In this document: in pieces, positions 5,083-35,089 of the stretch
Layout of the letters: each line of letters opens with the position of its first letter
How positions within the stretch are numbered: position 1 is the first letter of the stretch
From: a virus
DNA: 46,835 bases
Reading direction: 5' to 3' (one strand)
Virus record (IMG/VR): IMGVR_UViG_3300032284_000545
Coordinates: 1-46,835 of that record
Program-made: the position numbers and the translations under genes
The notes under the pieces: generated by a model
Databases searched by the model: none
What the model saw: only the letters and a program-made list of their open reading frames with translations
What the model was told of the DNA's origin: nothing

Positions 5083-5333
5083 GAGTGCTAGTTCACAGTA
5101 TTGAAATGGGTGATGTAGAGGATCCTGAGGTCTATGCCGCGGACCCTATTATCAAGTTCGAGAAAACTGAACAAGGGCTATGGCTAAAAGAACATAGTTA
5201 TGAACAGATGGAATTTATCATCAGGCCAAATTCAGGCACATATGGATTTATAATATATTTGTTTGCTTGGTTGAGAGATAAAGATTTAACTTACTATACA
5301 TTAAAATGGGGGGAAGTAGAAGATGAGTTATGA
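5079..5333 (+). CDS. Hypothetical protein, 84 aa
   Basis: ATGA-coupled to the previous gene. Mixed alpha/beta composition with acidic N-terminal half (MGDVEDPEVYAADP). A short hydrophobic stretch (YGFIIYLFAWL, about 60-70) is too short and isolated to call a membrane segment. No family recognised. Its 3' end carries the ribosome binding site and start of the next small gene. Confidence 0.55.
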   Translation: MRVLVHSIEMGDVEDPEVYAADPIIKFEKTEQGLWLKEHSYEQMEFIIRPNSGTYGFIIYLFAWLRDKDLTYYTLKWGEVEDEL

Positions 5334-5478
5334 TATATTAAAAGCCGCATTAGAAAAAAAGAAAGCTGCAAATGCACCAGTTAAGAAAGGTAGCAAGGTT
5401 GATAATAAAAGCCCTGGTGTACATTCACAAGTGACCTCAAACAAACCTGCTAAAAAGTCAGCTGGTAGAGGTAGATAA
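5323..5478 (+). CDS. Small basic protein, 51 aa
   Basis: A short gene read as ATG at 5323 through TAA at 5476-5478. A G-run (GGGGGG, 5308-5313) acts as a strong ribosome binding site, the start overlaps the previous stop region, and the stop forms a TAATG overlap with the kinase gene. The product starts MSYDILKAALEKKKA and then becomes Lys/Ala/Ser/Gly-rich and probably disordered, ending SAGRGR. Composition suggests a nucleic-acid or protein-binding tail but no function can be given. Confidence 0.6.
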   Translation: MSYDILKAALEKKKAANAPVKKGSKVDNKSPGVHSQVTSNKPAKKSAGRGR

Positions 5479-5918
5479 TGAAAGTATTAGTGATGGGATT
5501 ATCTGGTGCTGGTAAAAGTGCCTTTGCTGAACGACTGTTTCTCGAAGTGGTTAAGAATAATCTGGCTGAGTGGTTGAATGCCGATGAAGTGCGCACCGAA
5601 ACCAACGACTGGGACTTCACTGAAGAAGGACGACTACGACAGGCTAAACGCATGACTGTGCTGGCTAATCGACATGTTGAAGAAGACTACATAGCGATCT
5701 GTGATTTCATCTGTCCTAAACGCGAATACAGAGAAATCCTCAATGCTGACATCACAGTGTGGTTAGATACAGTTGAGTCTAGTGACTATGCTGATACAGA
5801 TAAACTATTCGAAGCACCCACAGAAGGTGAATACACTTTCCGCATTACCAGCAAAGATGATATCGAAAAAACTGTCGCTACGGTAGCAGATTTGGTTGAG
5901 ATCCTAGCTGAGGCGTAG
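5478..5918 (+). CDS. Adenylylsulfate (APS) kinase-like P-loop kinase
   Basis: P-loop GLSGAGKS at residues 7-14 has the variant typical of APS kinase (CysC), which phosphorylates APS to PAPS, the universal sulfate donor. A following LNADEVRTE segment (about 33-41) matches the position of the DGDNVR motif, and AICDFICPKREYREIL (about 72-87) matches the FISP-type segment. At 146 aa it is shorter than CysC (about 200 aa), mainly after that point. The next two genes are sulfotransferases that use PAPS, which supports the assignment. A broader adenylate-kinase-like role cannot be excluded. TAATG overlap with the previous gene. Confidence 0.7.
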   Translation: MKVLVMGLSGAGKSAFAERLFLEVVKNNLAEWLNADEVRTETNDWDFTEEGRLRQAKRMTVLANRHVEEDYIAICDFICPKREYREILNADITVWLDTVESSDYADTDKLFEAPTEGEYTFRITSKDDIEKTVATVADLVEILAEA

Positions 5919-5919
5919 A

Positions 5920-6525
5920 ATGGCAACACACGTATTTGGACAATACAATATAACCTACATTCATATCTCTAAATGTAGTGGCACTAGTATCAGGGCGTGG
6001 TTAGAGTCTGCCATGGGTCATAGCCAGATATTATTTTTAGAAGCCGATCAGACTATCGAGTCAATGAGAGCCAGCTTTGATGTCAAATGGGCTTTCGCTG
6101 TAGTTCGCAATCCATGGGATCGATTAGTTAGTATGTATACATACATGATGGGTATATATCAACGAGGAGAGTCCGATCACACTGTGGAAGATTTTCGTAA
6201 TTTATTAATCAGAGCTGATGGATCTTATAACAGTTTTTTGGAATTTTTACAAGTGTTTAGTAACATGCCATATTCTCCATCAATTATTACTGCACGTAGC
6301 CCAATGAGCGATTATCTTAGAGGTGGAGTTGATCTTGTGATAAGATACGAAAATCTAAATGCAGAATTTGCACCATTGCAAAAAATGTTTAACTGTTATA
6401 CTCCGCTTCCTAGATTAAGAAGCAGTGTGCATAACAACTACTCATCATATTATGATACCCAAACTAAAGATCTGGTAGCAAAACTATTTACTGAAGACAT
6501 AGATACTTGGGAATATACATTCTAA
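5920..6525 (+). CDS. Sulfotransferase (carbohydrate type), copy 1
   Basis: 201-aa member of the PAPS-dependent sulfotransferase superfamily. The 5'-phosphosulfate loop is HISKCSGTSI (15-24) and the 3'-phosphate-binding motif is VVRNPWDRLVSMYTY (61-75). The C-terminus has the usual segment ending in Y...F. No signal peptide or membrane anchor is present, so it would act in the host cytoplasm on a soluble or membrane-peripheral acceptor. It follows the APS-kinase-like gene by one base and is a tandem paralogue of the next gene, with blocks of identical DNA shared between them. Confidence 0.82.
   Translation: MATHVFGQYNITYIHISKCSGTSIRAWLESAMGHSQILFLEADQTIESMRASFDVKWAFAVVRNPWDRLVSMYTYMMGIYQRGESDHTVEDFRNLLIRADGSYNSFLEFLQVFSNMPYSPSIITARSPMSDYLRGGVDLVIRYENLNAEFAPLQKMFNCYTPLPRLRSSVHNNYSSYYDTQTKDLVAKLFTEDIDTWEYTF
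6302..6335 (+). repeat. 34-bp exact repeat, sulfotransferase copy 1 member
   Basis: This 34-base block occurs again without mismatch at 6928-6961. It encodes the segment MSDYLRGGVDL in both sulfotransferases. A second exact block of 22 bases is shared at 6100-6121 and 6705-6726 (3'-phosphate-binding motif). Surrounding DNA is far more diverged, which points to gene duplication with conversion or strong constraint in these blocks. Confidence 0.85.
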
Positions 6526-7151
6526 TGGCTTTACATATTGTCGGTCAACATAACGTAACATTTATACATATACAAAAGACCGCAGGGTTTAGTATTAAAA
6601 CTTGGCTGATAGCTGCAATGGGTAACAGTCAAGCAATAGAAGAAACAGGGTCGCCTACCATTACATATATGAAGGAAAATTACAACGTACAGTGGTCTTT
6701 TGCAGTAGTTCGCAATCCATGGGATCTTTGGGTTAGTGCATATTTTCATACTAAAAAGCAACTTGAAACAAATAAATCAGATGATATATTATACTCAGAA
6801 GGTTTAGACGAATGTTTTCTATCCATGCGAAATTCTCAACAACAAATGATTAGTTTCGAAGAATTTCTGATGATTGTTGATGCTGATTCAAAAAAAGAAA
6901 TAATGGTCGATGCTCGCATATCTAATTCAATGAGCGATTATCTTAGAGGTGGAGTTGATCTAGTATTGAGATTTGAGAATCTCAATAAAGAGTTTAGTGC
7001 TGTTCAAGAAAAGTTCAACTCAAACATACCGTTACCGTATCTTAACTCATCAATACACGCTAACTATCAGTCTTATTATACACCAACTACTAAAAATCTA
7101 ATCTATAAGCTATTTAAAGAAGACATAGATAGATGGGGGTATACATTTTGA
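6525..7151 (+). CDS. Sulfotransferase (carbohydrate type), copy 2
   Basis: The ATG at 6525 overlaps the previous stop (TAATG) and aligns the N-terminus with copy 1; an upstream in-frame ATG at 6507 adds six residues that merely read through the end of copy 1. Motifs: HIQKTAGFSI (15-24) and VVRNPWDLWVSAY (61-73), which depart from copy 1 around the acceptor-facing region. A 15-25-residue insertion in the middle relative to copy 1 suggests a different acceptor. No signal peptide. 208 aa. Confidence 0.82.
   Translation: MALHIVGQHNVTFIHIQKTAGFSIKTWLIAAMGNSQAIEETGSPTITYMKENYNVQWSFAVVRNPWDLWVSAYFHTKKQLETNKSDDILYSEGLDECFLSMRNSQQQMISFEEFLMIVDADSKKEIMVDARISNSMSDYLRGGVDLVLRFENLNKEFSAVQEKFNSNIPLPYLNSSIHANYQSYYTPTTKNLIYKLFKEDIDRWGYTF
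6928..6961 (+). repeat. 34-bp exact repeat, sulfotransferase copy 2 member
   Basis: Second copy of the block at 6302-6335, in the same reading frame and the same position of the paralogous protein. Confidence 0.85.
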
Positions 7152-7573
7152 CCAAAATAGTATTATGTACAGGTGGATTTGATCCACTCCATGTTGGGCA
7201 TATTGATTATTTTAATGCTGCCAAATTACTTGGTGATATCCTAATAGTAGGAGTCAACAGTGATGCTTGGTTGATTCGTAAAAAAGGATATGCGTTTATG
7301 CCCAGTACAGATCGAATCACTATTATACAAAGTCTGTGTATGGTTGATAATTGTTTGTTATTTAACGATGATGATGATACTGCTATAGAAGCAATTAGGA
7401 ATGTTCAAATGCTGTATCCAACTAGTCAAATTATATTTGCCAACGGTGGAGATCGTACTGCTGCCAACATACCAGAAATGAATATAAAAGGTGTAGTGTT
7501 TAAGTTTGGTGTAGGTGGCACCAACAAACGAAACTCAAGTAGTAAATTATTGTCTGTTTGGGCCAATCATTGA
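7148..7573 (+). CDS. Cytidylyltransferase-like nucleotidyltransferase (RfaE2/TagD type)
   Basis: Transfers a nucleotidyl group from NTP to a sugar or polyol phosphate. CTGGFDPLHVGHIDYF (7-22) contains the HxGH motif at 15-18, and the ANGGDR segment near residue 98 resembles the RfaE C-terminal domain family, followed by a Ser/Thr-rich SSS loop near the end. The start is uncertain: TTG at 7148 gives the usual compact N-terminus, overlaps the previous stop as TTGA and has GGGGG at 7135-7139 eight bases before; ATG at 7133 lacks such a site. About 141 aa. Probably activates a precursor for glycan synthesis. The 3' end overlaps the opposing gene by 7 bases. Confidence 0.8.
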   Translation: MTKIVLCTGGFDPLHVGHIDYFNAAKLLGDILIVGVNSDAWLIRKKGYAFMPSTDRITIIQSLCMVDNCLLFNDDDDTAIEAIRNVQMLYPTSQIIFANGGDRTAANIPEMNIKGVVFKFGVGGTNKRNSSSKLLSVWANH

Positions 7574-9242: not shown

Positions 9243-10790
9243 TCATTGAGCATTCTTGATTTGCAAAAAGAAACGTGGCCAATAATACATTTCAGTAAAA
9301 TCATATATCATGTCTTTGAAATTTCTATATGGATTAGGTACTGCTTCTATAAACATCTTAAGTTTAAGCCCTGTTGACTTGCGTGGAATATATGGCTCAA
9401 TTAGTTCATTTAGTTCTATAGCTAGATTATTAGCCTGTATAAAATTCGTTATATCACCATCGTCGTCCTTCTCCCAATATACAGGATATTCTTCATTCCA
9501 ATCATTGTATACTGTGTACCCGTATTTGCTAAAGTCTTTTTCTATACCAGATAACCATTGGTAAGGGGTGGTGTTATCATTTGGTTTCAATACAAGAGGA
9601 GAATAAGAAAAGTCATTAATATATCTATGTCCTTCTTTGACGTACCACTCAGCACTTTCACGAGCACTTCTTTTCATATCGTATGGTAGTCCAATAATAA
9701 CACTAGATGCTATGGTAATATCTTCACCCCATTTTTCGTCCTTTAACCAGCGTAAAATATTAAGTTTCTTTGTGATTTTGCCACCCTTACCAATCAATGC
9801 AGCAGTCTTATCATTCCAAGCATCAATGCCCCAATAACTATCTTTGATACCAATATCCTTTAGTATGTCTGCCTGCTCCGGAAAACGCCCTATTAAATCA
9901 ATTCTTAAAAAAGCCCAAAAGTTTGGCTTAAATGGCAGACTCTGTATAACTTCTCTGATAGCTAACAGCTTATCTGTGGAATCGTTAAAGGTTTCGTCAA
10001 TGATACTATAACTAGTAATACCCCATTTTTCATAGTTGGTCATTAATTCTTTGTATATAGTTTCTTGGGTCTTTAAATGATTCTTAGTCTGTTGACCGAG
10101 TATAGGATAACTGCAAAATGCACAATTAAAAATACAACCGCGGCCGAACTCGAACAATAAAAATTCATCTTTGTGTATGTTATCTGTTTCTACATATTCT
10201 GTAACTGAAGTCTTAAAGTCAAATTCTCCATCTCGAGCAGTACGATCATAGTCAACTACCTTATTAAAAATTCTTTTTGGACCTCGTTTAGATATGCTGT
10301 TCATATATTCAACTAACTTGTTCTCGCTAAATCCAATAAACACATTATCGACATATGGATCATCTATGTAATCGTAGGCAGTGAAACCTCCAACTAAAAA
10401 CTTAATCTTTGGATTCTTTTGTTTGACATAGTTTACATATGGTTCAGTAGAATTTCTACTAAAATTATAACTCAGGCTTTCAAAGTACCACGGATGCTTT
10501 GTATGATCATATCCCATTGTGTGATCATATTCTTCTCCTGCCTGTTTCAATATTGTATGCTTTCTAGCTAGCATAGCATTAGTAGAAACTCCCACGGCAT
10601 AGGTATCTTCACCTATAGCAATATCCAAAATCTCTGTATATCTTTGCCAATTTATTGTTGCAGAATAAGAAACAACTAAAACTGTGTATCCTTGTTTACG
10701 AAGTTCGCTGGCCATACGATAAGGACCGAAAGATCTTGAACGTGCTGCAAATGAAGGATTATCACAAAATAATATAAAATTATAAGTCAT
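9243..10790 (-). CDS. Radical SAM protein with N-terminal cobalamin-binding-like domain
   Basis: 515 aa. The radical SAM cluster motif is GCIFNCAFC (Cys219, Cys223, Cys226), binding [4Fe-4S] and S-adenosylmethionine for radical chemistry. The N-terminal 200 residues have the Rossmann-like layout of B12-binding radical SAM proteins (strand FILFCDNP, VGVST, FLVGGFTAYD, VFIGFSENKLVEY), but no clear DxHxxG cobalamin motif is seen, so B12 use is doubtful. The family includes methyltransferases and ring-forming enzymes on sugars, lipids and peptides. Its start overlaps the end of the upstream oxygenase gene by 11 bases, so the two are probably made together. Confidence 0.82.
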   Translation of the reverse strand: MTYNFILFCDNPSFAARSRSFGPYRMASELRKQGYTVLVVSYSATINWQRYTEILDIAIGEDTYAVGVSTNAMLARKHTILKQAGEEYDHTMGYDHTKHPWYFESLSYNFSRNSTEPYVNYVKQKNPKIKFLVGGFTAYDYIDDPYVDNVFIGFSENKLVEYMNSISKRGPKRIFNKVVDYDRTARDGEFDFKTSVTEYVETDNIHKDEFLLFEFGRGCIFNCAFCSYPILGQQTKNHLKTQETIYKELMTNYEKWGITSYSIIDETFNDSTDKLLAIREVIQSLPFKPNFWAFLRIDLIGRFPEQADILKDIGIKDSYWGIDAWNDKTAALIGKGGKITKKLNILRWLKDEKWGEDITIASSVIIGLPYDMKRSARESAEWYVKEGHRYINDFSYSPLVLKPNDNTTPYQWLSGIEKDFSKYGYTVYNDWNEEYPVYWEKDDDGDITNFIQANNLAIELNELIEPYIPRKSTGLKLKMFIEAVPNPYRNFKDMIYDFTEMYYWPRFFLQIKNAQ

Positions 10791-11274
10791 TAATTACTCC
10801 GCTAACTTGACAAGAAACAAAATTAGACGTACTACCGTTAGCTGCCCAATGAAATTCTTCACTGTTAAAACACCAAGTATCACCCGCTTTCCACTTAGTA
10901 AGGATCTCAGTTCCTATCTGCACTAATTGTCCTAACTCCCAATCTCTAAGCATTATTAGATACCTAACACACTTTGATACCTCTACATCATACGTTTGAC
11001 GTAGTGTATAAAAATTATCTTGATGTACAGGTATTACTTGATTTGGCTCAAGTGATAACCAAGATATTGCTCCATGATCTATATTAAAAATTTTGTAAAA
11101 CTTATTACAACTTGCAGGTAGATCATTATTAAAAGTCTGTAGTAACTCTGCATTTTCGTTGCTAAAGTTTTTATGAAAATATTCTCGCTGATTTGTTTTT
11201 ACTTTATTGTTGAAAGTAAAGTTTTCTAAATCATCAGCCCAGAAGTTTTCTAGGCGACTGTGATATCTTATCAT
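10780..11274 (-). CDS. HxD...H iron oxygenase of the AspH-like type
   Basis: 164 aa. IPVHQDNFY (His84, Asp86), a following Arg-rich VRYLIMLRDWELGQ, WKAGDTWCF and FHWAANGS (His142) give the 2-His-1-carboxylate arrangement of small 2-oxoglutarate/Fe(II) oxygenases, here in an aspartyl-hydroxylase-like order. Closely similar in layout to the gene at 18411-18905. No signal peptide. ATGA overlap with the amidinotransferase gene upstream and 11-base overlap with the radical SAM gene downstream suggest a joint pathway step. Substrate unknown. Confidence 0.7.
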   Translation of the reverse strand: MIRYHSRLENFWADDLENFTFNNKVKTNQREYFHKNFSNENAELLQTFNNDLPASCNKFYKIFNIDHGAISWLSLEPNQVIPVHQDNFYTLRQTYDVEVSKCVRYLIMLRDWELGQLVQIGTEILTKWKAGDTWCFNSEEFHWAANGSTSNFVSCQVSGVINDL

Positions 11275-12332
11275 GAGAAGTAATCTTCCAAATGTCCTTT
11301 GCGGCGAAGATCTAATGTTGCACAGTGTAATCCACCACTTAGCGTACGAGCATGACGCATATTAATAGGTATTACATTAAATTTATATTGCTCTAATACC
11401 TTAATAAGATTAGTTTGCTCTACCCCTACTACTATAGTTTGAGGATCAACACTAAGGATGTTCATACCAATATAAGGACTGCATGGACTAACTGATCCAG
11501 GCCCTTCAGTAGGAACAGGAGTAAGGTTAACATCTTCAAACCAGATCTTATCCCATTTCTCAAATATCTTAGGACAGTTCTCAGGAGTAACACGTGTGCT
11601 GTTCAATAATACTAAACCTGCACGTAATGGAATAATTGTGCTGTCAAAGTGTCCGTAACTATAAATGTGTTCTGCTGGATGTATACGATAACCACGAGGT
11701 TCTAATACATTCTTAAGCCATTGTAATCCCCAATGATTGCCTGTATTGCTAATTTGAAATAGTATGTCCTTTCCTAATCGTACACAATTAGGTGCATCAA
11801 ATACAGGTTCTAAGTTAGTCAGACTAGGATTGCGATCAATGTTTTCAAACTGATAACTTTCATCAGGTAATATTGGTTTAGGTGCCGCTATCCACTCTAC
11901 TCCATCCTTAACAGCATCTAACATGATATCATGATATGCACGATTTTCAAAATATCTAGCACGACAGCTACTAGGAGTTTCAATCATTAGATTATCTAAC
12001 GGTAGTAATAGATCGCGTGGACACCAAGTATACCAGCCAGTGGTCTTCCACTCCGGCGTACTAAACTCTACACTATGATCAATAGGTTTAGGACGATGTA
12101 CTTTAATACCTAACCCACTTAGTGTATCTGCAAGCACTTGTAGATCTTCATTGGCTTCATCAATTAACCACTTAGGATATGGACCTTCTAATGGTTTAAT
12201 TAGTTCCATAGGATGATTAGTGTAGCTCATGCTCATAGTACTTCTATCTACTGTAGGAACTCTGGCATGATCTGCTATACCTACAATAATCTCTTCTAAT
12301 GGGTCCCAGTGATTATGCGTTGATATTTTCAT
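11271..12332 (-). CDS. Arginine:X amidinotransferase (glycine/inosamine amidinotransferase family)
   Basis: Moves the amidino group of arginine to a primary amine, forming a guanidino compound and ornithine. The catalytic triad of the family is visible: Asp179 in VFDAPNCVR, His228 in YGHFDSTI and nucleophile Cys337 in SGGLHCATLD. Length 353 aa fits StrB-type enzymes (about 345-350) and is shorter than animal AGAT. Lacking a targeting sequence, it would act in the cytoplasm. Neighbouring PLP enzyme and SDR sugar-nucleotide enzyme make an amino-sugar acceptor plausible, as with StrB in streptomycin synthesis. Alternatives: glycine or another small amine. Confidence 0.88.
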   Translation of the reverse strand: MKISTHNHWDPLEEIIVGIADHARVPTVDRSTMSMSYTNHPMELIKPLEGPYPKWLIDEANEDLQVLADTLSGLGIKVHRPKPIDHSVEFSTPEWKTTGWYTWCPRDLLLPLDNLMIETPSSCRARYFENRAYHDIMLDAVKDGVEWIAAPKPILPDESYQFENIDRNPSLTNLEPVFDAPNCVRLGKDILFQISNTGNHWGLQWLKNVLEPRGYRIHPAEHIYSYGHFDSTIIPLRAGLVLLNSTRVTPENCPKIFEKWDKIWFEDVNLTPVPTEGPGSVSPCSPYIGMNILSVDPQTIVVGVEQTNLIKVLEQYKFNVIPINMRHARTLSGGLHCATLDLRRKGHLEDYFS

Positions 12333-16042: not shown

Positions 16043-17240
16043 AGTAACAGATTGTAAAATAGTATTTTGCTGTGTTGACGACACCGACACATATAATTCT
16101 ACATGGATTAAAGGTTTAATAAAGAATCAAGCAGACTATACTATCAGTAACATATATCAAAAAGGGTATAGTGTACTGCAAGGTAAAGACGAAGATAAAC
16201 TATTAATAGCCGCAGTGTCGCGAGGTTATAAACATGCTGTGGTATTCTCGCCTGGTACAGAGTTTGTTAATGGATTTGATTTTTTTAATGAAATTGAATT
16301 ACTAGCTACAAAAGACTACTTCCTTGCTGGTCATGTGTTAGATAGAAAGACAGGGTACTACGAACTACATCATCAATGCTATCTAATTAATCTAGAGTAT
16401 TATCAAAAATTAGATTGCCCTATGATAGGTAAACAGCAACTAGGGTTTAGACACACGCAACTAATTCCCAATCGTAGTGATGAAACCTGGCATGATGACT
16501 ACACACCAAAATTTGTATGGCAGGGTAAAGAGTCTGAAGAATATGAACATAGATGTCATGGCTGGAACATATTAAGTTTAGCATTTAGTTATGACTACAA
16601 GGTATTGGTGTTTGATGAGCTTATAAGAAATAGTAAGCGTCACTACTATCCAGAAAGTCATCAAGACTTCCTAAAACAAATACAGTGGGCATATCACAGA
16701 CAAACTTATTGTGTACAAGAGTTTATACATACGTCTAGTAATGAACGAGCAAACTTTATGCCTAGTATACCTTTTAGGCAAGTAGTAACACCTGCTAGTG
16801 GCATATGGTATGATGAGTACATTGACACTGTTAATCCAGTAACAGTTATATTCTATGACTATAATCAGAAAGCATTAGACTATTGGCAAGAACATGCACC
16901 TAAGCGTGACAATGTAACTTACAAATTTGTACAGTGTGACCTTTTATCTAGACAAGATTTTATACAGGCTATTGATACATCAGTTAGCAACACTCTAATT
17001 AATCTATCAAACATCTTTAATTATGAAGCAACAACATTCTTTTATAGTTTAGAATATAGAATACATTTAGAAAATCAACTGCTAGATAAAATTAGATCAG
17101 TGATGCCTAATGTGTGGATTAATTTCTCAGCTAGAGCTGCTACAGGATATATCAACAGCGAGTCTTACGGTAAAGCAATTGATATTACAAACACTCTCTT
17201 AGCAAAGATAAAGAAACTAAGCTGGCATACTACAGACTAG
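16026..17240 (+). CDS. Unknown two-domain protein, possibly glycosyltransferase-like plus methyltransferase-like
   Basis: The ATG at 16026 is chosen over an upstream TTG at 16002. About 404 aa. The first 190 residues have a GT-A-like flavour (HAVVFSPGTEFVNGFDFFNE, then ELHHQCYLINLEYYQKL, a pattern where an acidic residue ends a strand). The last 140 residues have Rossmann-type alternation (VTVIFYDYNQKALDYWQ, FVQCDLL, NTLINLSNIFNYEA), where D-Y-N after a strand recalls a SAM or nucleotide site. I do not recognise the family with confidence. Convergent with the radical SAM gene, overlapping it by 11 bases. Confidence 0.45.
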   Translation: MPTELRVTDCKIVFCCVDDTDTYNSTWIKGLIKNQADYTISNIYQKGYSVLQGKDEDKLLIAAVSRGYKHAVVFSPGTEFVNGFDFFNEIELLATKDYFLAGHVLDRKTGYYELHHQCYLINLEYYQKLDCPMIGKQQLGFRHTQLIPNRSDETWHDDYTPKFVWQGKESEEYEHRCHGWNILSLAFSYDYKVLVFDELIRNSKRHYYPESHQDFLKQIQWAYHRQTYCVQEFIHTSSNERANFMPSIPFRQVVTPASGIWYDEYIDTVNPVTVIFYDYNQKALDYWQEHAPKRDNVTYKFVQCDLLSRQDFIQAIDTSVSNTLINLSNIFNYEATTFFYSLEYRIHLENQLLDKIRSVMPNVWINFSARAATGYINSESYGKAIDITNTLLAKIKKLSWHTTD

Positions 17241-18414
17241 TTTCACCCTTCCATCCTGCAATAGTTTTTAAAAAGAATTCTTTACTAACTTCCGGACTAA
17301 CTTTATCTTTGTAGTTCAGAATGTATTCGTATAGTGTTGGATTTAATAACGCTAGGCTCTCGTTACGTATATCATCTAACCCTTGTGTAAAATTAATAAA
17401 ATGATGGAATAGGTTTTCACCAGGCGAATTCAAATATGCTAACATCTCAGGATCTTTGATCTTTGAGCAAACTAAATTTTTGTAATCATCAGGAGTATTT
17501 CTAACACTCATCCAGTTTGGTCCTTGAACCATTTGAAATGTTTTAATGAAAGAGGGAAAATTATGTGAAACAAAAGCGGTCAATTCATCAACATGATTGA
17601 TGGTATAGATACTAACGGCGCTATGTACTTGTATTTTTGTAGTGCCTGCTGGTCGCTGATCAGCTAATTGTTTATAAAATTCCATTTGCTGACTAATTGC
17701 TGTAAAGTTTGAACTTCCGCGTACATAATCATTTAATTTGCCGTAGGCATCAACACTAATAGATAGATCAAGATAGCGACAATCAGTCAATGCCTTCAAC
17801 AATGTATCTTTGGGTGGCACCATCCCGTTAGTATGCAGATTAATCTTTATCTTATCTAGTCTATTCTGCTGATCAACTTTCCTAAAAAACCTCTCAAGGT
17901 TACTACTAATAGTGGGTTCGCCACCTAACAGCTCAACATCATCAAGTTCACTCAGATCTAGATCCTTATAGATATGATTTTCAAGATACTTTGTAGGACT
18001 AAGTGTAATACCATATAGTTTTTGTTCATCATTCCATATTAAATGACTGTGTACACTACTACAACTACGACATTTAATGTTACACACATTATCCAAAAAT
18101 AGTTCTAATTTAGTCAATGATAGTCTGGTCTTATATCCGATAGTGGTCAACTGATGTTGACGCATAGATGTTATTCCGATATCTTCCTCTTCATAACATG
18201 TTTCACATCCATCAACACGATCACCCCTTAACATACGAGCTCGCATATCAGTCATGAATTCACCATTACGTGTTTCGTATATAGGAACATGGCGTTTAGT
18301 AAACGGTTTCATATTTTGAAATTGACAGCAAGGCAACGCAGTATCGAATGCCTGTAGGCTTGAACTCATAAAAGGTCTTGGACAATAAGTTTTACTAGGT
18401 TCTTTTGGTATCAT
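17230..18414 (-). CDS. Radical SAM protein with N-terminal twitch/SPASM-like domain
   Basis: 394 aa. An N-terminal auxiliary-cluster-like domain carries Cys11, Cys29-Cys30, Cys70 and Cys73 (ALPCCQF ... GCETCYEEE), then the radical SAM motif CNIKCRSC (Cys111, Cys115, Cys118) and LLGGEPT near 162. This order, auxiliary Cys domain before the SAM domain, is the 'twitch domain-containing radical SAM' architecture. Three other genes here share it (26115, 29227, 38138). Chemistry unknown; SPASM/twitch relatives modify peptides or sugars. ATGA overlap with the upstream oxygenase gene indicates coupled production. Confidence 0.85.
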   Translation of the reverse strand: MIPKEPSKTYCPRPFMSSSLQAFDTALPCCQFQNMKPFTKRHVPIYETRNGEFMTDMRARMLRGDRVDGCETCYEEEDIGITSMRQHQLTTIGYKTRLSLTKLELFLDNVCNIKCRSCSSVHSHLIWNDEQKLYGITLSPTKYLENHIYKDLDLSELDDVELLGGEPTISSNLERFFRKVDQQNRLDKIKINLHTNGMVPPKDTLLKALTDCRYLDLSISVDAYGKLNDYVRGSSNFTAISQQMEFYKQLADQRPAGTTKIQVHSAVSIYTINHVDELTAFVSHNFPSFIKTFQMVQGPNWMSVRNTPDDYKNLVCSKIKDPEMLAYLNSPGENLFHHFINFTQGLDDIRNESLALLNPTLYEYILNYKDKVSPEVSKEFFLKTIAGWKGETSL

Positions 18415-23598: not shown

Positions 23599-24705
23599 AT
23601 GTTTGCTTTTGAACAGCTTAAATCCATACACGTAGAAATTACCAATCTTTGTCAGGCAAGTTGCCCTATGTGCGCCCGTAACTACCATGGCGGTAAAGAT
23701 AATCCTCTCTTGATAAAAAGTTCCTGGACCTTAGATGAATTTAAAACTATATTCAATCAAGATGTACTTGATACGATCAATCACGTATACTTCTGTGGTA
23801 ATTTTGGTGATCCTATACTTAATAATGATCTAATACCAATGTGTCAATATCTCAATGATCAGAAGTCTACTCTTACCGTACACATACATACCAATGGTGG
23901 TGCTAGAAAAACCGATTGGTGGCAAAAACTAGCACAGGTATTGCCTAAGAATCATTGTGTGCTGTTTGGCATAGATGGGTTAGAAGATACGCATCATTTG
24001 TATCGTGTAGGAACTACATACAATAATGTTATTGCTAATGCCAAGGCATTCATTGACGCAGGCGGTATTGCTGAATGGGTATTTATTAAATTTAAACACA
24101 ATGAACATCAAGAACAGGAAGCTAGAAACAGAGCCGTTAAACTTGGATTTAAAACATTTATGTTAAAGAACAGCTCTAGATTTTTAGGTGAGCCAAAGTA
24201 TCGTGTATTAGACAAAGCCGGTGAAGTAACACATTATTTAGAACCGCCTAGCGATAATGTAATTAGGTTTATTAGCAAGGATATGATTAAAGATTATCGA
24301 AATACTATATTACCATTGACTGTTAAATGTCATGTATTAGATCTTAAAGAAATCTATATCGATGCACATAAAAATATATTTCCTTGCTGTTTCATCGCTA
24401 GCATGCCATATACTGAATATGATTCAGATAATATAACTTTAGATATTAGGTCTGAGATAAAGAATCAATCTGATAGTTTAATATCTGATCTAGGGGGCTT
24501 AGATAATTTAGATGCAGTAACTAAAGGAATTAAGAATGTTGTTAATTCTACGCAATGGCAAACTGTTTGGCAACCTTATTGGGATCAAAAAAAACTATTG
24601 ATATGTGCTAGGACCTGTGGAGTTAAAGACGATATGTCTAAACCTAAAGATCAATTTTTAAAACGCGACCAACTTAAGAATAATCAATTTGAAAATCATC
24701 TGTAG
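23599..24705 (+). CDS. Radical SAM protein with C-terminal SPASM-like cysteines
   Basis: 368 aa. EITNLCQASCPMCARN gives Cys18, Cys22 and Cys25 for the SAM cluster, GNFGDPILNNDL takes the place of the GGE motif, and HTNGG marks the fourth strand. Further cysteines in KCHVLDLKEIYID, FPCCF and CARTCG suggest an auxiliary cluster. SPASM-type relatives act on peptides or small molecules. GAGAG at 23583-23587 is the likely ribosome binding site. The gene overlaps the convergent oxygenase gene by 32 bases. Confidence 0.83.
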   Translation: MFAFEQLKSIHVEITNLCQASCPMCARNYHGGKDNPLLIKSSWTLDEFKTIFNQDVLDTINHVYFCGNFGDPILNNDLIPMCQYLNDQKSTLTVHIHTNGGARKTDWWQKLAQVLPKNHCVLFGIDGLEDTHHLYRVGTTYNNVIANAKAFIDAGGIAEWVFIKFKHNEHQEQEARNRAVKLGFKTFMLKNSSRFLGEPKYRVLDKAGEVTHYLEPPSDNVIRFISKDMIKDYRNTILPLTVKCHVLDLKEIYIDAHKNIFPCCFIASMPYTEYDSDNITLDIRSEIKNQSDSLISDLGGLDNLDAVTKGIKNVVNSTQWQTVWQPYWDQKKLLICARTCGVKDDMSKPKDQFLKRDQLKNNQFENHL

Positions 24706-25384: not shown

Positions 25385-26131
25385 ATGAACGACTATCACA
25401 CACTAATGCAAAATATCGACGGAGTAGATATTCCGTTTTCATCAGATTGGACCAAAATCTCTGTAAGTATCAGTGGCGGCGCCGATAGTGCTCTGCTGGC
25501 TTATTTGTTATGTCAACTCGTCACTCAAAAAGATTTTGAATTGCACGTAATTAGTCATACTCGCATGTGGAAAACACGCCCTTGGCAAGGCCATGACAGT
25601 TTGAATGTTTATCACTATTTGGTCAAGCATTTTCCTAATATCAAATTTAAACGCCACACTAACTTTATTGCCCCAGAACTTGAACACGGTAATATTGGTG
25701 CTAGCCTAACTGACGAATATGGTAAACAAGTCAGCGGCGATAATATAGAACAACGAGCATTTGCTGAATATATATGTCACCACTATGATATTGATGCTTA
25801 TTATAATGCAGTTACCCGTAATCCAAAAGATGTAGACTTTGCTGGTATGCCTAGTAGAGATATCGACCCGAATAAAGATAACGAGCATCTAGCGGTCATG
25901 GAACATATGAATAGACTCGCGTGCCACCCTTTGCGTTTTGTGATGAAAGACTGGGTGATAAAACAATATCGCAGATTAAACATTTTAGATCTACTTAAAC
26001 TTACTAGAAGTTGTGAAGGTGAGTTTTTACATATAACCTATAAAAATTATATTCCTGGGCAAAGTGTACCTCTTTGCAATGAATGTTTTTGGTGCAAAGA
26101 AAGGTCATGGGCTATTGAACATTCAAAGTAA
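25385..26131 (+). CDS. PP-loop ATP pyrophosphatase, QueC-like zinc motif
   Basis: 248 aa. SGGADS at 30-35 is the PP-loop that activates a substrate by adenylation. Near the end, Cys208 and the cluster CNECFWC (Cys229, Cys232, Cys235) resemble the zinc site of QueC (7-cyano-7-deazaguanine synthase), but the first spacing is longer than in QueC. Other PP-loop families (thiolation or amide synthesis) remain possible. No FolE or QueD is seen in the window, so deazaguanine synthesis from GTP is not supported here. It overlaps the radical SAM gene downstream by 17 bases. Confidence 0.72.
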   Translation: MNDYHTLMQNIDGVDIPFSSDWTKISVSISGGADSALLAYLLCQLVTQKDFELHVISHTRMWKTRPWQGHDSLNVYHYLVKHFPNIKFKRHTNFIAPELEHGNIGASLTDEYGKQVSGDNIEQRAFAEYICHHYDIDAYYNAVTRNPKDVDFAGMPSRDIDPNKDNEHLAVMEHMNRLACHPLRFVMKDWVIKQYRRLNILDLLKLTRSCEGEFLHITYKNYIPGQSVPLCNECFWCKERSWAIEHSK

Positions 26132-27392
26132 AACATTCTGCTTACATCCTTTTACAGGATTAGCCACTAGAGAAGACGGTGCTATCAAAGCCTGCTGTCG
26201 TAGCCATCCGATCGGCTTCATCGATAAAGATAATTTAGAAACTATCTGGAACAACGATGCTATTAAACGTATGCGTCAGCAAGTTTTAAATAATGAACGA
26301 CCACCAGAATGCGAACCTTGTTTTGCATTAGAGGATCAGGGTGTAGAAAGTCTGCGCCAACGACATATAGCTGGCAAGATTCCAGAAGCACGCATTAACT
26401 TATATCCTAATGCATTAGATAGTTTAGGTAAAGATTATTCAATGCCATTTGAAATAGCCACAATGGAATTAAAATTAAATAATCTATGTAATCTTAAATG
26501 TCGCATGTGTCATCCTGCCGACAGTACCAGTTGGAATGATTGGAATCAGATTGAAGAGTTTTATGCCAAAGAAGATAATATCATATACAAATTAGTGAAA
26601 GATTTAAATTTAAAAGAAATTCCATTCTTAGATAAATTCCAAGACAACCCAATTTGGTGGAATAGTTTAGAAAAGCTATTACCTTACTTCCGTCGTGTAG
26701 AATTTGCAGGTGGCGAACCACTCATGGATCCACAGCATTATCGTATATTAGACATGTTAAAACCCTACGGTAAGAATATAGAAATTAAGTATGCTACCAA
26801 TGGCACCACATTGGGAATAAAAGGAGGACGCACAGTCCATGACTATTGGCCACATTTTAAATCAGTTGCCGTTAACGTCTCTCTTGACGGCATTGGTGAT
26901 GTTTATGAGTACATACGCGGTAACAGTGAGTGGAACAAAGTTGTTGAAAATATTAAAGAAATCCAAACGATACCTAACGTCAGACGAGTAGTCGGAGCAG
27001 TCACAGTACAAGTTAGTAACATATTACAATTAGATAAGATTATTGAATATTTTTTAAATGATCTTGGCATCATATTTCATACACATCGAGTAAGTTATCC
27101 AAAATTACTTTCGGCACAGGTATTACCTAAAGAATTAAAAAGTTTGGCCATCAAAAGATTATTGAATGCTAAAGACCGTATAAAGAAATATAAGATGGTA
27201 CAGTTACACCCTGAATTGTTTGATTACACTATTGCACAGATTGATGACAATATCAATTATCTAATGTTTAAAGATCAAAGCGAGAAATGGGTTGACTGCG
27301 TAGAGTTTAATCATAGATTAGATGCCAGCAGAAAACAATCTAAATTTGAAGAAATAACTCCGGAGTTTGCGGCCTATGTACAAGGTAAGTAG
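26115..27392 (+). CDS. Radical SAM protein with N-terminal twitch/SPASM-like domain
   Basis: Start is uncertain: TTG at 26115 is preferred (AAAGG about ten bases before, compact N-terminus); ATG at 26079 and GTG at 26064 are alternatives. From 26115, 425 aa. Auxiliary-type cysteines are Cys9 (TFCLHPF), Cys27-Cys28 (KACCRSHP), Cys66 and Cys69 (CEPCFALED), followed by the radical SAM motif CNLKCRMC (Cys125, Cys129, Cys132) and FAGGEPLMD. Architecture matches the 29227 and 17230 proteins. Coupled to the PP-loop gene, suggesting consecutive steps. Substrate unknown. Confidence 0.83.
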   Translation: MNIQSKTFCLHPFTGLATREDGAIKACCRSHPIGFIDKDNLETIWNNDAIKRMRQQVLNNERPPECEPCFALEDQGVESLRQRHIAGKIPEARINLYPNALDSLGKDYSMPFEIATMELKLNNLCNLKCRMCHPADSTSWNDWNQIEEFYAKEDNIIYKLVKDLNLKEIPFLDKFQDNPIWWNSLEKLLPYFRRVEFAGGEPLMDPQHYRILDMLKPYGKNIEIKYATNGTTLGIKGGRTVHDYWPHFKSVAVNVSLDGIGDVYEYIRGNSEWNKVVENIKEIQTIPNVRRVVGAVTVQVSNILQLDKIIEYFLNDLGIIFHTHRVSYPKLLSAQVLPKELKSLAIKRLLNAKDRIKKYKMVQLHPELFDYTIAQIDDNINYLMFKDQSEKWVDCVEFNHRLDASRKQSKFEEITPEFAAYVQGK

Positions 27393-28272
27393 TCGCTGGT
27401 CGCACCAAGATTCTATTAAAATAGAATGGAACATTGGTAAACGTTGTAATTATGACTGTAGCTATTGCCCCAACAGCATACATGATAATTCTAGTCCACA
27501 CGCAGATATAGAATTACTCAAATCAACTGTAGATAAAATAATTGCGTTAAATAAACCCGTCAGATTAAGTTTTACCGGTGGCGAACCTTGTGTACATCCT
27601 AAGTTTAAAGAATTGATTGATTATTGTAAGCATGTTGGCATTAAATGGATCAATGTAACTACCAATGGTACACTACCAATTAAATTCTATACTAGCTTAT
27701 CCATTGATCACCTAATCTTTAGTCTACACTTTGAACATGATTATCTACGTGTTATGGACACCATTGAACACGTTAGTCAAGAAGCGGTATATCAGGTAAT
27801 GGTACACGTAATTGCACATCATGACTATATGTCTCCCGTCAAACAAGTGGTACAAGAGTTAATACAATATGATATCGCTCATGCAGTACGTAGAATAAGA
27901 TGGACTGAGAATGATCATAATATATTTGATGACCTTAGATACAACGGTGATGATCTTTCTTGGCTATTAAAATATAATGCTACTGTGCAGCCTAATTGTG
28001 TCATCGACGAAGATAGAGACCAAATATATCATTCTAACGACATTATTAAACTACACAAGAATCAATTTAAAGATTGGTCGTGCAATGCCGGAATAGAAAG
28101 TCTTATGATCAATTGGGACGGTGAAGTCCATCGTGCTACTTGTAGAGTAGGCGGTAGTTTAGGTAATATCTACACAGATACATTTAATCAACCAATGGAG
28201 CCTATTAAGTGTACACGAGACTGGTGTACTTGCAGTGCAGATATACCGTTAACTAAGATAAAGACTTTGTAA
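27376..28272 (+). CDS. Compact radical SAM protein with C-terminal cysteine motif
   Basis: ATG at 27376 with GGAG at 27362-27365. 298 aa. KRCNYDCSYCPNS supplies Cys24, Cys28 and Cys31; LSFTGGEPCVHP is the GGE motif; TTNGT marks the SAM-binding region. The C-terminus has DWSCNAGIESLMINWDGE, ATCR and CTRDWCTCSAD, probably binding an extra cluster. Shares this C-terminal pattern with 28253-29230 and 34124-35089. Overlaps the preceding gene by 17 bases and the convergent gene by 20 bases. Confidence 0.83.
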   Translation: MYKVSSRWSHQDSIKIEWNIGKRCNYDCSYCPNSIHDNSSPHADIELLKSTVDKIIALNKPVRLSFTGGEPCVHPKFKELIDYCKHVGIKWINVTTNGTLPIKFYTSLSIDHLIFSLHFEHDYLRVMDTIEHVSQEAVYQVMVHVIAHHDYMSPVKQVVQELIQYDIAHAVRRIRWTENDHNIFDDLRYNGDDLSWLLKYNATVQPNCVIDEDRDQIYHSNDIIKLHKNQFKDWSCNAGIESLMINWDGEVHRATCRVGGSLGNIYTDTFNQPMEPIKCTRDWCTCSADIPLTKIKTL

Positions 28273-29230
28273 CATGAGTGTCCGGACTACATGAACAAAG
28301 ATTTCTCGGGCAAGATAAAACTTTTAATTCTATATTATCAGGGAATGAATCCTGGAATATATTAAATAGTATATCAATTATTTCTTCGAGGCAGCTACCT
28401 TTAATACTACCATCAGATCCAATAACAATAGTATCAAATCCAACACGGCAGTTCCAACCTTTAAAGTTATTCCACTTATTAACTATGATACTTTGTGATT
28501 GTGCTAATTGTATACTAGAGTCATCAAACATCACTATACTGTCATACAACCTAAGAGTGTCTAATCGTTTTAACAACCAATCACTGCTAGGTAATCTTTT
28601 TATGGTGTCGCCCAGATAGACTAATTGCTCATTGGTGTAAGTATCCATTCCTATACCAGGAATATCAACTATTGGTTTTGCTTCAACGAACCAAGGCTGT
28701 GAACTAGTAAGCATGGTATTGATTAGATTTACACACTTATCCCATGCTCTGTTATCCATAACGCAGAACCCAGTGACTTTTACACCCAATTCAAATAGTC
28801 TATCTGCAACAGCATTATAATGATCGATATCTACAAACTCATGATGGCAACTTAATACAACATCATCAAAGTACTGACTATTTTCTTCCCACCAACGCAG
28901 AGTGCGTGATCCATTTGATACTAATATAATAGTAACATCGTGCGATTCTTTTAATTCTTTGCAGAACTGTTCTAAGTGTGGCCAAAGTGTTGGTTCACCC
29001 CCACCAGAGATAGTCAATTGAAATTTAGTTTTATTATACTTGTTAGTATAAAAATCAAACATCTTTCTGAAATTAACAACAACTGTATCAATATTCTTAG
29101 GATATCTAAACTTACCCTCATGCGACCCAGGGAAGCAATATGAGCAATCATAATTGCAGATGTCGGTGGGGAAGAATCTAACTTGTAGCAAGTCTGTAGA
29201 GTTTGTTGATATTATTTTAATTGGAATCAT
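28253..29230 (-). CDS. Compact radical SAM protein with C-terminal cysteine motif
   Basis: 325 aa. DICNYDCSYCFPG gives Cys25, Cys29 and Cys32, TISGGGEPTLWP is the SAM-binding GGE region and VSNGSRTL follows. The C-terminus repeats the pattern W-x-C-R-x-G (GWNCRVGFDTI) with GSCLEE and CPRNLCSCSPD, as in the adjacent 27376 gene on the other strand. The two therefore are inverted paralogues meeting tail to tail. ATGA overlap with the 29227 radical SAM gene makes two radical SAM proteins in one unit. Confidence 0.83.
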   Translation of the reverse strand: MIPIKIISTNSTDLLQVRFFPTDICNYDCSYCFPGSHEGKFRYPKNIDTVVVNFRKMFDFYTNKYNKTKFQLTISGGGEPTLWPHLEQFCKELKESHDVTIILVSNGSRTLRWWEENSQYFDDVVLSCHHEFVDIDHYNAVADRLFELGVKVTGFCVMDNRAWDKCVNLINTMLTSSQPWFVEAKPIVDIPGIGMDTYTNEQLVYLGDTIKRLPSSDWLLKRLDTLRLYDSIVMFDDSSIQLAQSQSIIVNKWNNFKGWNCRVGFDTIVIGSDGSIKGSCLEEIIDILFNIFQDSFPDNIELKVLSCPRNLCSCSPDTHVTKSLS

Positions 29231-30633
29231 AATTCTCTTAGCTCTGGAAAAGTTTCAACAAAACTATTGGATCTTATGCTATCTAAATTTTCTATATACT
29301 CTTTAAATGCTAGTAGCTCATCAGATTGATCTTTAGCATCCATAAAATCTAATATCGCCTGCCATCGAGGCCACCCGTATGGATTATTCTTCCAGAAATC
29401 TTCGTCTTGTCTATAATTTTCATGCAACCAATTAGAAAACTCAGCAAAAATTTTATGTACTTGAATCTTATCAGCAGCTGGCAAGCATCGAATACTTAAG
29501 AATGTTGGAATATATAAAAGATGCATGTTAAGTATGCCACCGCCTGCCTGTACTCCATCGGTGATATTACCAAAATTAATCTTTTTAAAGTTCTGAGTGA
29601 TCTTCCATTTAGCTAATTCTGGTAAATGTTTGATGTTAAGTATCTGGATAGCTGTAGCAATACTAACTTCTATATTGTCCGGAGTATTATCTAATTTGTG
29701 CAAATTAGTAACAATAGTATTCCAATCACTAGGATATCTGATATAATGATTGCGCTCATCTACGGCATCAATACTAAACCCCACTTTAACTTTCTTAAAC
29801 TGTTTCCATAATTCAATAGTTTCGTCGTCTATTAATAAGCCATTGGTATTGTATCTAATCAGTATCTTATCGGCATATCCTTGACGTATGATTTCTTCAA
29901 GAAACCATCGATGTTCACGTATCATCAATGGTTCACCGCCAGCAAAGTAAACTTGTTTTAAGTTAGGGATCTGAGCATACATTTCTTTCCAAAAATCCGG
30001 ATTCTCGTGCCACTTGTTATTAAACCCTTGCTTATCCCAAGTCAGTTGGCTTATCAGATTCTGATGAGTTAGCAGAGGAAATATCTTTTTATGATCACCA
30101 ATCCATTGGCTTGAATCATGGGGACTACACATCACACACTTTAAATTACATGTATGCCCTAATCTAAGATCTAAATAAATTAACTCTTCTGGAATAGTAC
30201 CGTCTTCTTGTGTTTGTTTAACTAATTCTTCTATATCAATACCATCTTCTACCCAGGTGCCTGTTTCCCATATGCGTTTACTAGAAATACCTTGACCTTC
30301 TTCATTAAAACATTTAGTACAGCTCACCGGAATGTTACCTTCTAACATAGTATTACGTACTGAACGCATATATTCATTATTCCAGGCACTCATTGGAGTT
30401 TCACGCCCAAAATTTGCTGGGCGACCCGATTCGTTTTTAACCAGGCCTATTTCGTGATCCGTCCCAGCACCACTACTGTTACTATTGCAACATAGTCGCA
30501 TGTCACCATTGGGGCGTGTAGCAAAATGTATCCAAGGAAGGACACAAAACGTATCAGAATTAGTCAATGATTTTATTTTATGTTGCCACTGACCAATTTT
30601 ATTGGTATCTGGTTGTATCCAATATTTTTTCAA
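29227..30633 (-). CDS. Radical SAM protein with N-terminal twitch/SPASM-like domain
   Basis: Start codon is TTG at 30633, overlapping the upstream small gene's stop as TTGA. 468 aa, the longest of the four similar proteins. Cys30 (TFCVLPW), Cys48-Cys49 (RLCCNSN), Cys105 and Cys108 (CTKCFNEEGQG) form the N-terminal auxiliary set; CNLKCVMC (Cys162, Cys166, Cys169) is the SAM cluster; YFAGGEPLM follows. Downstream of two AspH-like oxygenases and a 54-aa protein, and coupled to a second radical SAM gene. Confidence 0.85.
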   Translation of the reverse strand: MKKYWIQPDTNKIGQWQHKIKSLTNSDTFCVLPWIHFATRPNGDMRLCCNSNSSGAGTDHEIGLVKNESGRPANFGRETPMSAWNNEYMRSVRNTMLEGNIPVSCTKCFNEEGQGISSKRIWETGTWVEDGIDIEELVKQTQEDGTIPEELIYLDLRLGHTCNLKCVMCSPHDSSQWIGDHKKIFPLLTHQNLISQLTWDKQGFNNKWHENPDFWKEMYAQIPNLKQVYFAGGEPLMIREHRWFLEEIIRQGYADKILIRYNTNGLLIDDETIELWKQFKKVKVGFSIDAVDERNHYIRYPSDWNTIVTNLHKLDNTPDNIEVSIATAIQILNIKHLPELAKWKITQNFKKINFGNITDGVQAGGGILNMHLLYIPTFLSIRCLPAADKIQVHKIFAEFSNWLHENYRQDEDFWKNNPYGWPRWQAILDFMDAKDQSDELLAFKEYIENLDSIRSNSFVETFPELREL

Positions 30634-33544: not shown

Positions 33545-34133
33545 GCTTTTTTCCTATAATCATATATCTTGTATACAACGGTAAAGCCAATTCGCCTGCG
33601 CAAAAAACATCCAATTGGCTTTGTTCGACAAACTGATCTAAATCCCGTGCCAATCGGATGTGTTCATCGATGGCATAGTTATTACTCTGGGCTACGATTA
33701 TGCTGTTCTGGCTCTGTTTTGCCAACCAACGATCATATTGCTCCTGTGATATATGTTCGCAACTGGTGTTGATGATCACGTCATAATCACTAGCGATATC
33801 ACACATATTTGCTAGTAAAGCTGTGAATTTACCCTGAATTTCCTCACCTTTGTTCATCATATTTGCAGTATCCTGAACATGATGATCTATATCAATACTA
33901 CGAATTTTTATAACAGGTAATCCACTTTGGAACAGCATACTGGCCAACACACCGACCCACCCACCATGGATATCTATTGTAACATCTTTAGTAATATACG
34001 GACGTAGATTTTCTATCAACCATTCTTTGCTTTTGATCTGTCCTGCCCAAAATGCATCTAAAACTCGTTGTGGATCATCGCTGGTACGTATGGCCTGCAT
34101 CCAATAGTGTAGATGTTCGGTATCTATTTGCAT
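33537..34133 (-). CDS. SAM-dependent methyltransferase-like conserved phage protein
   Basis: 198 aa. Rossmann-type SAM site: TIDIHGGWVGVLASMLF (about 52-68), IRSIDIDHHV (strand 2 acid), ANMCDIASDYDVIINTSCEH (motif IV-like) and SNNYAI. I recognise this family as a recurrent methyltransferase-like protein of T4-like phages with unknown acceptor. Cytosolic. Coupled to a radical SAM gene upstream (10-base overlap) and to the CSD-oxygenase downstream. Confidence 0.65.
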   Translation of the reverse strand: MQIDTEHLHYWMQAIRTSDDPQRVLDAFWAGQIKSKEWLIENLRPYITKDVTIDIHGGWVGVLASMLFQSGLPVIKIRSIDIDHHVQDTANMMNKGEEIQGKFTALLANMCDIASDYDVIINTSCEHISQEQYDRWLAKQSQNSIIVAQSNNYAIDEHIRLARDLDQFVEQSQLDVFCAGELALPLYTRYMIIGKKHE

Positions 34134-35089
34134 TTTGGTATTTTACTATCTGCTGAACTAACGCATGTAGGTGTTGTACATACCTGTGATTCTTTAAACA
34201 ATTCAAATCCTTCTGTTAGTGTGCCTAGTGGAACATCATGACAACTATAGCCACGTTTAACTTCGTTACCTCTTATTATAACACTTTGATACCCACTATT
34301 GCAAGTCCAATCTTTGAACTTATTAAATCCGAAACTATTAAAACGTTCTGCTTGATCTATGTGATAATCGTTAGTCCCATCATTGAGTTTTATTTGTAAT
34401 ACCTCTTCTCCATTGGCATGTTGGGGGAATCCTTGTTGCATCTTATCTATCATGTCAGCATCATATCCGATCACTATGTAGCTAGCAGTCGGGTCACTTT
34501 GTGGTTTGAGTGTTACATTGATGCCTCGATCAGCAAAACGTAAGCATCGTTCATAGGTTTCCCAGAATACGTCAGGAACCATGACTTGATTAATAGTTAC
34601 AAACACCCCTCGATCCATAAGCATCAATATCTTATCGCCGAATTCTTGCTCATCAGCAAACTCTGCATGATAACTTGCTGTAAGACTTTTACGCTGTATA
34701 TAAGTCGTAATTGCTAACCATTTATTCCACCACTCAACTCCTGGACTTAAATTAGTAGTCATATGCAGGCTTTGATACTTACTATAACCAAGATTAAGGC
34801 AAGATGTTAACTCTGATAGATGTTTATAAGCCGTCGGCTCACCCCCACTAAAACTCCAGTGGAATCGTTCAAATCCGTTGTCTGATGCCTGCTTTTTAAT
34901 TTTAAAAATAGCGTCTTTATAGACTGTTAGATCTTGATAATCAAGCTGATCCGTGCGGGCGTAAGGCCAACAATAACTGCATTTATAGTTACAAAATCGG
35001 CCAAGTATCCAGCTGACGTTAAAGAGATCAGACTCTAACATCGATCGCTGACCAAAACGGATTATATTATTCCATGGTATATCTGACAT
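34124..35089 (-). CDS. Compact radical SAM protein with C-terminal cysteine motif
   Basis: 321 aa. GRFCNYKCSYCWPYA gives Cys33, Cys37 and Cys40, WSFSGGEPTAYKH is the GGE region, TTNLSPG follows. The C-terminus has DWTCNSGYQSVIIRGNEV, YSCHDV and CTTPTCVSSAD, the same pattern as in 27376 and 28253, with one fewer cysteine in the last cluster. Head of the minus-strand block down to 28253. An ATTAAATA octamer lies six bases before the ATG (35096-35103). Confidence 0.83.
   Translation of the reverse strand: MSDIPWNNIIRFGQRSMLESDLFNVSWILGRFCNYKCSYCWPYARTDQLDYQDLTVYKDAIFKIKKQASDNGFERFHWSFSGGEPTAYKHLSELTSCLNLGYSKYQSLHMTTNLSPGVEWWNKWLAITTYIQRKSLTASYHAEFADEQEFGDKILMLMDRGVFVTINQVMVPDVFWETYERCLRFADRGINVTLKPQSDPTASYIVIGYDADMIDKMQQGFPQHANGEEVLQIKLNDGTNDYHIDQAERFNSFGFNKFKDWTCNSGYQSVIIRGNEVKRGYSCHDVPLGTLTEGFELFKESQVCTTPTCVSSADSKIPKCK

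Follow-up and report, generated by a model that had tools for sequence, protein, structure and literature searches.

APS kinase produces PAPS, the universal sulfate donor. In the canonical enzyme the lid is formed by the KGLYKKAR...KGFTGID region. Genes annotated as cysC are widespread and transcribed in viruses, and have been taken as evidence of virus-driven sulfate assimilation. They were placed in assimilatory sulfate reduction, and the encoded proteins are small (109-135 residues modelled) and branch apart from prokaryotic CysC (PMC9529941, PMC10914622). Sulfotransferases have also been reported in phages, with unclear function (PMC10580990). No description of a kinase-sulfotransferase pair in phages was found in the openly accessible literature.

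We analysed a 46,835 bp record of an uncultured virus, hereafter the window. It contains a candidate four-gene unit in which, probably, a small kinase converts APS to PAPS and two sulfotransferases, ST1 and ST2, sulfate an acceptor made during infection. The kinase very probably belongs to the same family as the published viral cysC auxiliary metabolic genes (PMC9529941, PMC10914622). The difference lies in the genomic partners, which here are sulfotransferases and not CysH.

Layout of the cassette

The three genes that had been predicted between positions 5478 and 7151, one APS-kinase-like and two sulfotransferase genes, are all present on the plus strand, with the motifs as described. The kinase gene (5478..5918) encodes a P-loop protein of 146 aa with the sequence GLSGAGKS. 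It is followed after 1 nt (TAG-A-ATG) by ST1 (5920..6525, 201 aa, motifs HISKCSGTS and RNPWDRLVS). The stop codon of ST1 overlaps the start of ST2 (TAATG; 6525..7151, 208 aa, motifs HIQKTAGFS and RNPWDLWVS). The likeliest start of ST2 is this ATG at 6525, while the mechanically called frame begins at TTG 6507. The spacing between the three genes is 0-1 nt, and such tight joints are the layout of one translated unit.

The 3' end of ST2 is overlapped by a gene of the HldE/RfaE nucleotidyltransferase type with an HxGH motif (7133..7573, plus strand), which probably belongs to the unit as its fourth member. It matches phrog_7878 (4e-24) and TIGR02199 (E 1.4e-20, yet under the cut-off of that model), and its role is probably the activation of sugar-1-phosphates. 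A related sulfotransferase in another viral locus (L131) also adjoins a gene of this type. On the other side, a small basic open reading frame of 51 aa read from the sequence (MSYDILKAALEKKKAANAP..., 5323..5478, plus strand) has a stop codon overlapping the start of the kinase gene (TAATG); its membership in the cassette is uncertain. Promoter and terminator scans of the cassette produced nothing exceeding shuffled sequences.

At the DNA level, sequenced phages yielded no close match to the cassette as a whole. Two loci whose thymidylate synthase places them close to the window (L170 and L178) have neither the kinase nor the sulfotransferases at the corresponding place. Therefore the cassette is a variable insertion.

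In the proposed pathway the kinase would phosphorylate adenosine 5'-phosphosulfate (APS) at the 3' position, yielding PAPS, and ST1 and ST2 would then move sulfate from PAPS to the acceptor. No APS-forming enzyme was found in the window; APS would have to be supplied by the host or by a gene that lies beyond this fragment. The acceptor would most likely be a surface, tail or cell-envelope glycan. A glycan is proposed because the unit includes the HldE-type gene, and epimerase, aminotransferase-like and carbamoyltransferase genes occur further along.

Some other genes of the window deserve mention. The NodU-like carbamoyltransferase (41022-42494) has both Pfam domains (E 1e-49 and 3e-37), and its co-occurrence with sulfotransferases recalls the decoration of Nod factors. 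Unusually many radical-SAM-like proteins are encoded among 2OG-oxygenase-like and GDSL-like ones (9243-10790, 17230-18414, 23599-24705, 26064-29230, 29227-30633, 34124-35089, 38138-39517); the genes of these regions compared with Pfam were those at 9243-10790, 28253-29230 and 38138-39517 only, and the last of them falls just under the cut-off. The product of the gene at 11271-12332 has a weak, below cut-off match to arginine deiminase (PF02274) and a strong match to phrog_25854, a phrog with no assigned function.

The kinase and the two sulfotransferases

The kinase scores above the cut-off of the Pfam APS_kinase family (PF01583; E 2.5e-11, 44.3 bits against 21.1), with the alignment covering residues 3-90 only, and below that of the NCBIfam equivalog model apsK (40.8 against 138.7 bits). 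Its AlphaFold (AF2) model, built from an alignment of 50 sequences, has a pLDDT of 96.6. A fold outside the APS kinases, which the original prediction had named as evidence against itself, was not seen: each of the 50 best PDB matches of the model is an APS kinase or contains an APS kinase domain. The top match is the ternary complex with ADP and APS (1m7g, TM 0.82 by query length). Assignment to generic dNMP kinases, polynucleotide kinases or selenocysteine kinases was ruled out by profile and fold scores.

Alignment to the Penicillium enzyme (1d6j) maps residues D63, R66, F75, R80 and N83 (P. chrysogenum numbering), which we take to be those contacting APS, to D36, R39, F47, R52 and Q55 of the window kinase. 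The first four positions are invariant in all 188 distinct viral and bacterial relatives, and the N83 position is glutamine in all 188. The family shares with CysC (PF01583, TIGR00455) the fold, the P-loop and the D-x-x-R, F-x-x-x-x-R and F-I-x-P blocks. It differs in its size (about 130-155 aa when unfused), in the replacement of N83, in the apsK score and in the lid, which is about 20 residues shorter and has the motif DTD/DTN..F..P in its place. The signatures N/D-D-W-D-F and D-T-[ND] also set it apart from CysC. Judged by these sequence features, the window kinase is a distinct mini-APS-kinase subfamily. By every structural sign in the model, it looks like a working APS kinase.

Both sulfotransferases exceed the cut-off of PF03567 (29.1 bits for ST1 and 33.3 bits for ST2, against 22) and match phrog_3347 (2.6e-17 and 1.1e-19, respectively). 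They are paralogues with 48% identity. Positions K22, G25 and S27 of the 5'-PSB motif and R67...S75 of the 3'-PB motif are kept in 37-40 of 40 viral relatives, and both PAPS motifs are retained in ST1 and ST2. The AF2 model of ST2 has a pLDDT of 88. Sulfotransferases make up nearly the whole of its top 50 PDB matches, and several of these structures contain PAP, but the scores are low (best E 2e-3, TM 0.38). Thus a fold without a PAPS pocket, the other outcome that had been named as adverse, was not observed. A scan of viral contigs with the single ST2 protein yielded no relatives, whereas the profile scan did recover them.

The window proteins resemble the PF03567 carbohydrate sulfotransferases (heparan sulfate 6-O-sulfotransferase type; phrog_3347) in that they pass the family cut-off, have the PAPS motifs and share the fold class. 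Unlike most of their viral relatives, they lack a near-invariant histidine, which is present in 36 of 40 of these relatives and is replaced by aspartate in ST1 and by serine in ST2. This position is presumably the site of the catalytic base in PF03567 enzymes. Thus one or both of the window enzymes may be slow, altered or inactive. The loss of the histidine could even mean that ST1 and ST2 are divergent copies in a decayed or repurposed cassette which no longer sulfates anything. We consider this quite improbable, as both genes have uninterrupted frames, run in the same direction and lie close together, every PAPS-contact residue is retained in both proteins, and some other sulfotransferase families use glutamate as the base.

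Kinase loci in phages

The viral collection was scanned with the kinase and sulfotransferase profiles, with the thymidylate synthase of the window as the control anchor. Of 80 viral loci with a sulfotransferase of the same family as ST1 and ST2, 22 contain the kinase, in every case no more than 616 bp away. Conversely, 85 loci have the kinase, counting the window, and 29 of these include a recognisable sulfotransferase, in 17 cases within 100 bp. Among 80 control loci anchored by thymidylate synthase, 32 contain the kinase and three contain a sulfotransferase, each beside a kinase; no sulfotransferase was observed in the 48 kinase-free control loci. Dereplication of the sulfotransferase loci at 60% identity leaves 24 clusters; the kinase is a neighbour of the sulfotransferase in 6 of them, more often than any other gene, and the runners-up in two. 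The pairing of the kinase with sulfotransferases is not due to chance, and related pairs turn up again in numerous viruses that are not akin to one another.

The order of genes varies: kinase-sulfotransferase, sulfotransferase-kinase and opposed strands were all seen. The sulfotransferases adjoining the kinase belong to three Pfam families, PF03567, PF13469 and PF00685, and the repeated linkage to all three argues for a shared donor. The majority of kinase-bearing phage records have no Pfam-detectable sulfotransferase; many of these records are fragments, and some proteins adjoining the kinase have sulfotransferase-like motifs and escape Pfam. Fold, motifs and recurrent linkage together give good support to the core of the original prediction, that one cassette combines a PAPS-forming kinase with two PAPS-using sulfotransferases. 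Its further idea, that the phage enlarges the PAPS pool of the host, is more conjectural.

The kinase has a second frequent partner. In 43 of the 85 kinase loci it adjoins, or is fused to, a NadM-like nucleotidyltransferase, which by sequence resembles NMN adenylyltransferase (PRK01153, 4.5e-6) and not ATP sulfurylase. Fusions with a C-terminal HxGH nucleotidyltransferase occur in phage DLP_6 (L006:7001-7732), in Clavibacter phage 33 (L007:5992-6729) and in loci L153-L165; in L153-L159 and L165 the fused gene overlaps a sulfotransferase gene by 4 nt, whereas the kinase and sulfotransferase genes of DLP_6, a Stenotrophomonas phage, lie at a large distance from each other. This arrangement may be compared with the bifunctional PAPS synthases of the PAPSS type, which combine ATP sulfurylase with APS kinase: in the relatives considered here, the fusion partner of the kinase is an HxGH-superfamily nucleotidyltransferase, a sulfotransferase gene comes next, and the partner is similar to NMN adenylyltransferases of the NadM type. 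It is missing from the window, where a search with the partner profile found nothing. The fourth gene of the window unit was considered for this role and rejected, as it is of the HldE type and is not matched by the partner profile. In locus L054 (966-1184), as well as in L055 and L066, a small membrane protein with the DUF2061 domain (PF09834, 1.3e-13 in L054) is encoded between the kinase and the nucleotidyltransferase.

The NadM-like enzyme might make APS, which is a guess from the genomic context. Its presence also allows for other substrates. The window protein could be a kinase related to APS kinases that phosphorylates a different nucleotide conjugate at the 3' position, one made in many relatives by the adjoining NadM-like enzyme and used as the donor by the sulfotransferase-like proteins. 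There is a precedent, as the cytidine diphosphoramidate kinase of Campylobacter is a homologue of APS kinase; the short lid, the family-wide replacement of N83, the low apsK score and the frequent linkage to the HxGH nucleotidyltransferase are all consistent with this possibility. It is nevertheless unlikely, given that the best fold matches are APS kinases without exception, that the four other APS-contact residues are invariant, and that the partner sulfotransferases come from three PAPS-dependent families, with both PAPS motifs kept in the family studied.

The similarity of the partner to NMN adenylyltransferase models might further suggest NAD salvage, the two proteins forming a NadR-like pair of ribosylnicotinamide kinase and NMN adenylyltransferase to which the sulfotransferase linkage is secondary. 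This seems extremely improbable: the kinase matches the apsK and APS_kinase models and not ribosylnicotinamide kinase, and has the APS kinase fold; the window has no NadM-like gene; and the linkage to sulfotransferases would be left unexplained. PAPS formation thus remains our preferred function of the kinase.

Marine bacteria and the role of viral cysC

In one scan of cellular genomes (loci L250-L329), chromosomal copies of the same kinase type came to light in marine bacteria, SAR11 and SAR86 among them. There the kinase is usually followed by the NadM-like nucleotidyltransferase, and in several lineages it lies beside a sulfotransferase. Sulfotransferases of the PF13469 family score above the cut-off in 38 of 46 kinase-bearing genomes, as opposed to 2 of 14 control genomes. 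Among the same 46 genomes, Sat was found in two and convincing matches of the CysD/CysH type in about two. SAR11 and SAR86 also gave weak PF01507 matches, most of them in reading frames about 320-540 aa long, and these were set aside as putative cross-matches to other PP-loop enzymes such as GuaA. The complete SAR86 chromosome CP097973.1 (G089; L316) encodes the kinase, the nucleotidyltransferase and two sulfotransferases, and neither PF01747 nor PF01507 has a match on it. Across 116 genomes from the SAR86 order, the kinase and a sulfotransferase are both present in 67 and both absent in 39, with 4 and 6 discordant cases (Fisher p 6e-20, uncorrected for shared ancestry). SAR11 needs reduced sulfur, according to Tripp 2008 as cited in PMC3160333.

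These observations raise the question of how the sulfate donor for the sulfotransferases is made in genomes that have no known ATP sulfurylases. They also bear on the suggestion that the phage depends on its host for ATP sulfurylase. As a rule this is doubtful, since most SAR11 and SAR86 genomes with the kinase have no recognisable ATP sulfurylase, and in half of the viral kinase loci APS might conceivably be provided by the accompanying nucleotidyltransferase. Tentatively, and with more doubt than confidence, one may propose a non-canonical, compact PAPS pathway common to the streamlined bacteria SAR11 and SAR86 and many phages. In such a pathway the NadM-like enzyme would replace ATP sulfurylase and produce APS, the mini kinase would form PAPS and the sulfotransferases would use it, in cells mostly without known sulfate reduction genes; the window would then represent a phage variant in which the kinase and two sulfotransferases are retained and APS is borrowed.

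The partners of the kinase also bear on the choice between sulfation and assimilation. None of 50 kinase-bearing phage records, a set that does not include the window, encodes a PAPS reductase (CysH) above the cut-off, and in the same 50 records no ATP sulfurylase of the Sat type (PF01747) was found. As the recurrent neighbour of the kinase is a sulfotransferase, and neither of these enzymes accompanies it in the 50 records, sulfation is the best explanation. The other reading, in which the kinase is a viral CysC driving host sulfate to sulfite and cysteine and the two sulfotransferases are accidental neighbours, agrees with the routine filing of viral cysC under assimilatory sulfate reduction and with the equally small size of the viral proteins modelled in those studies (PMC9529941, PMC10914622). 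It is very unlikely in view of the missing reductase and the recurrent sulfotransferase neighbour, and most SAR11 and SAR86 genomes with the same kinase type likewise have sulfotransferases and neither Sat nor a convincing CysH or CysD.

Sulfation of an acceptor made during infection thus remains our preferred role for the window cassette. More generally, the data suggest that viral cysC genes often serve the decoration of molecules with sulfate, not sulfur nutrition. If viral cysC mostly feeds sulfotransferases, its ecological reading changes: phages would sulfate surfaces, and this would perhaps alter adsorption, superinfection or defence.
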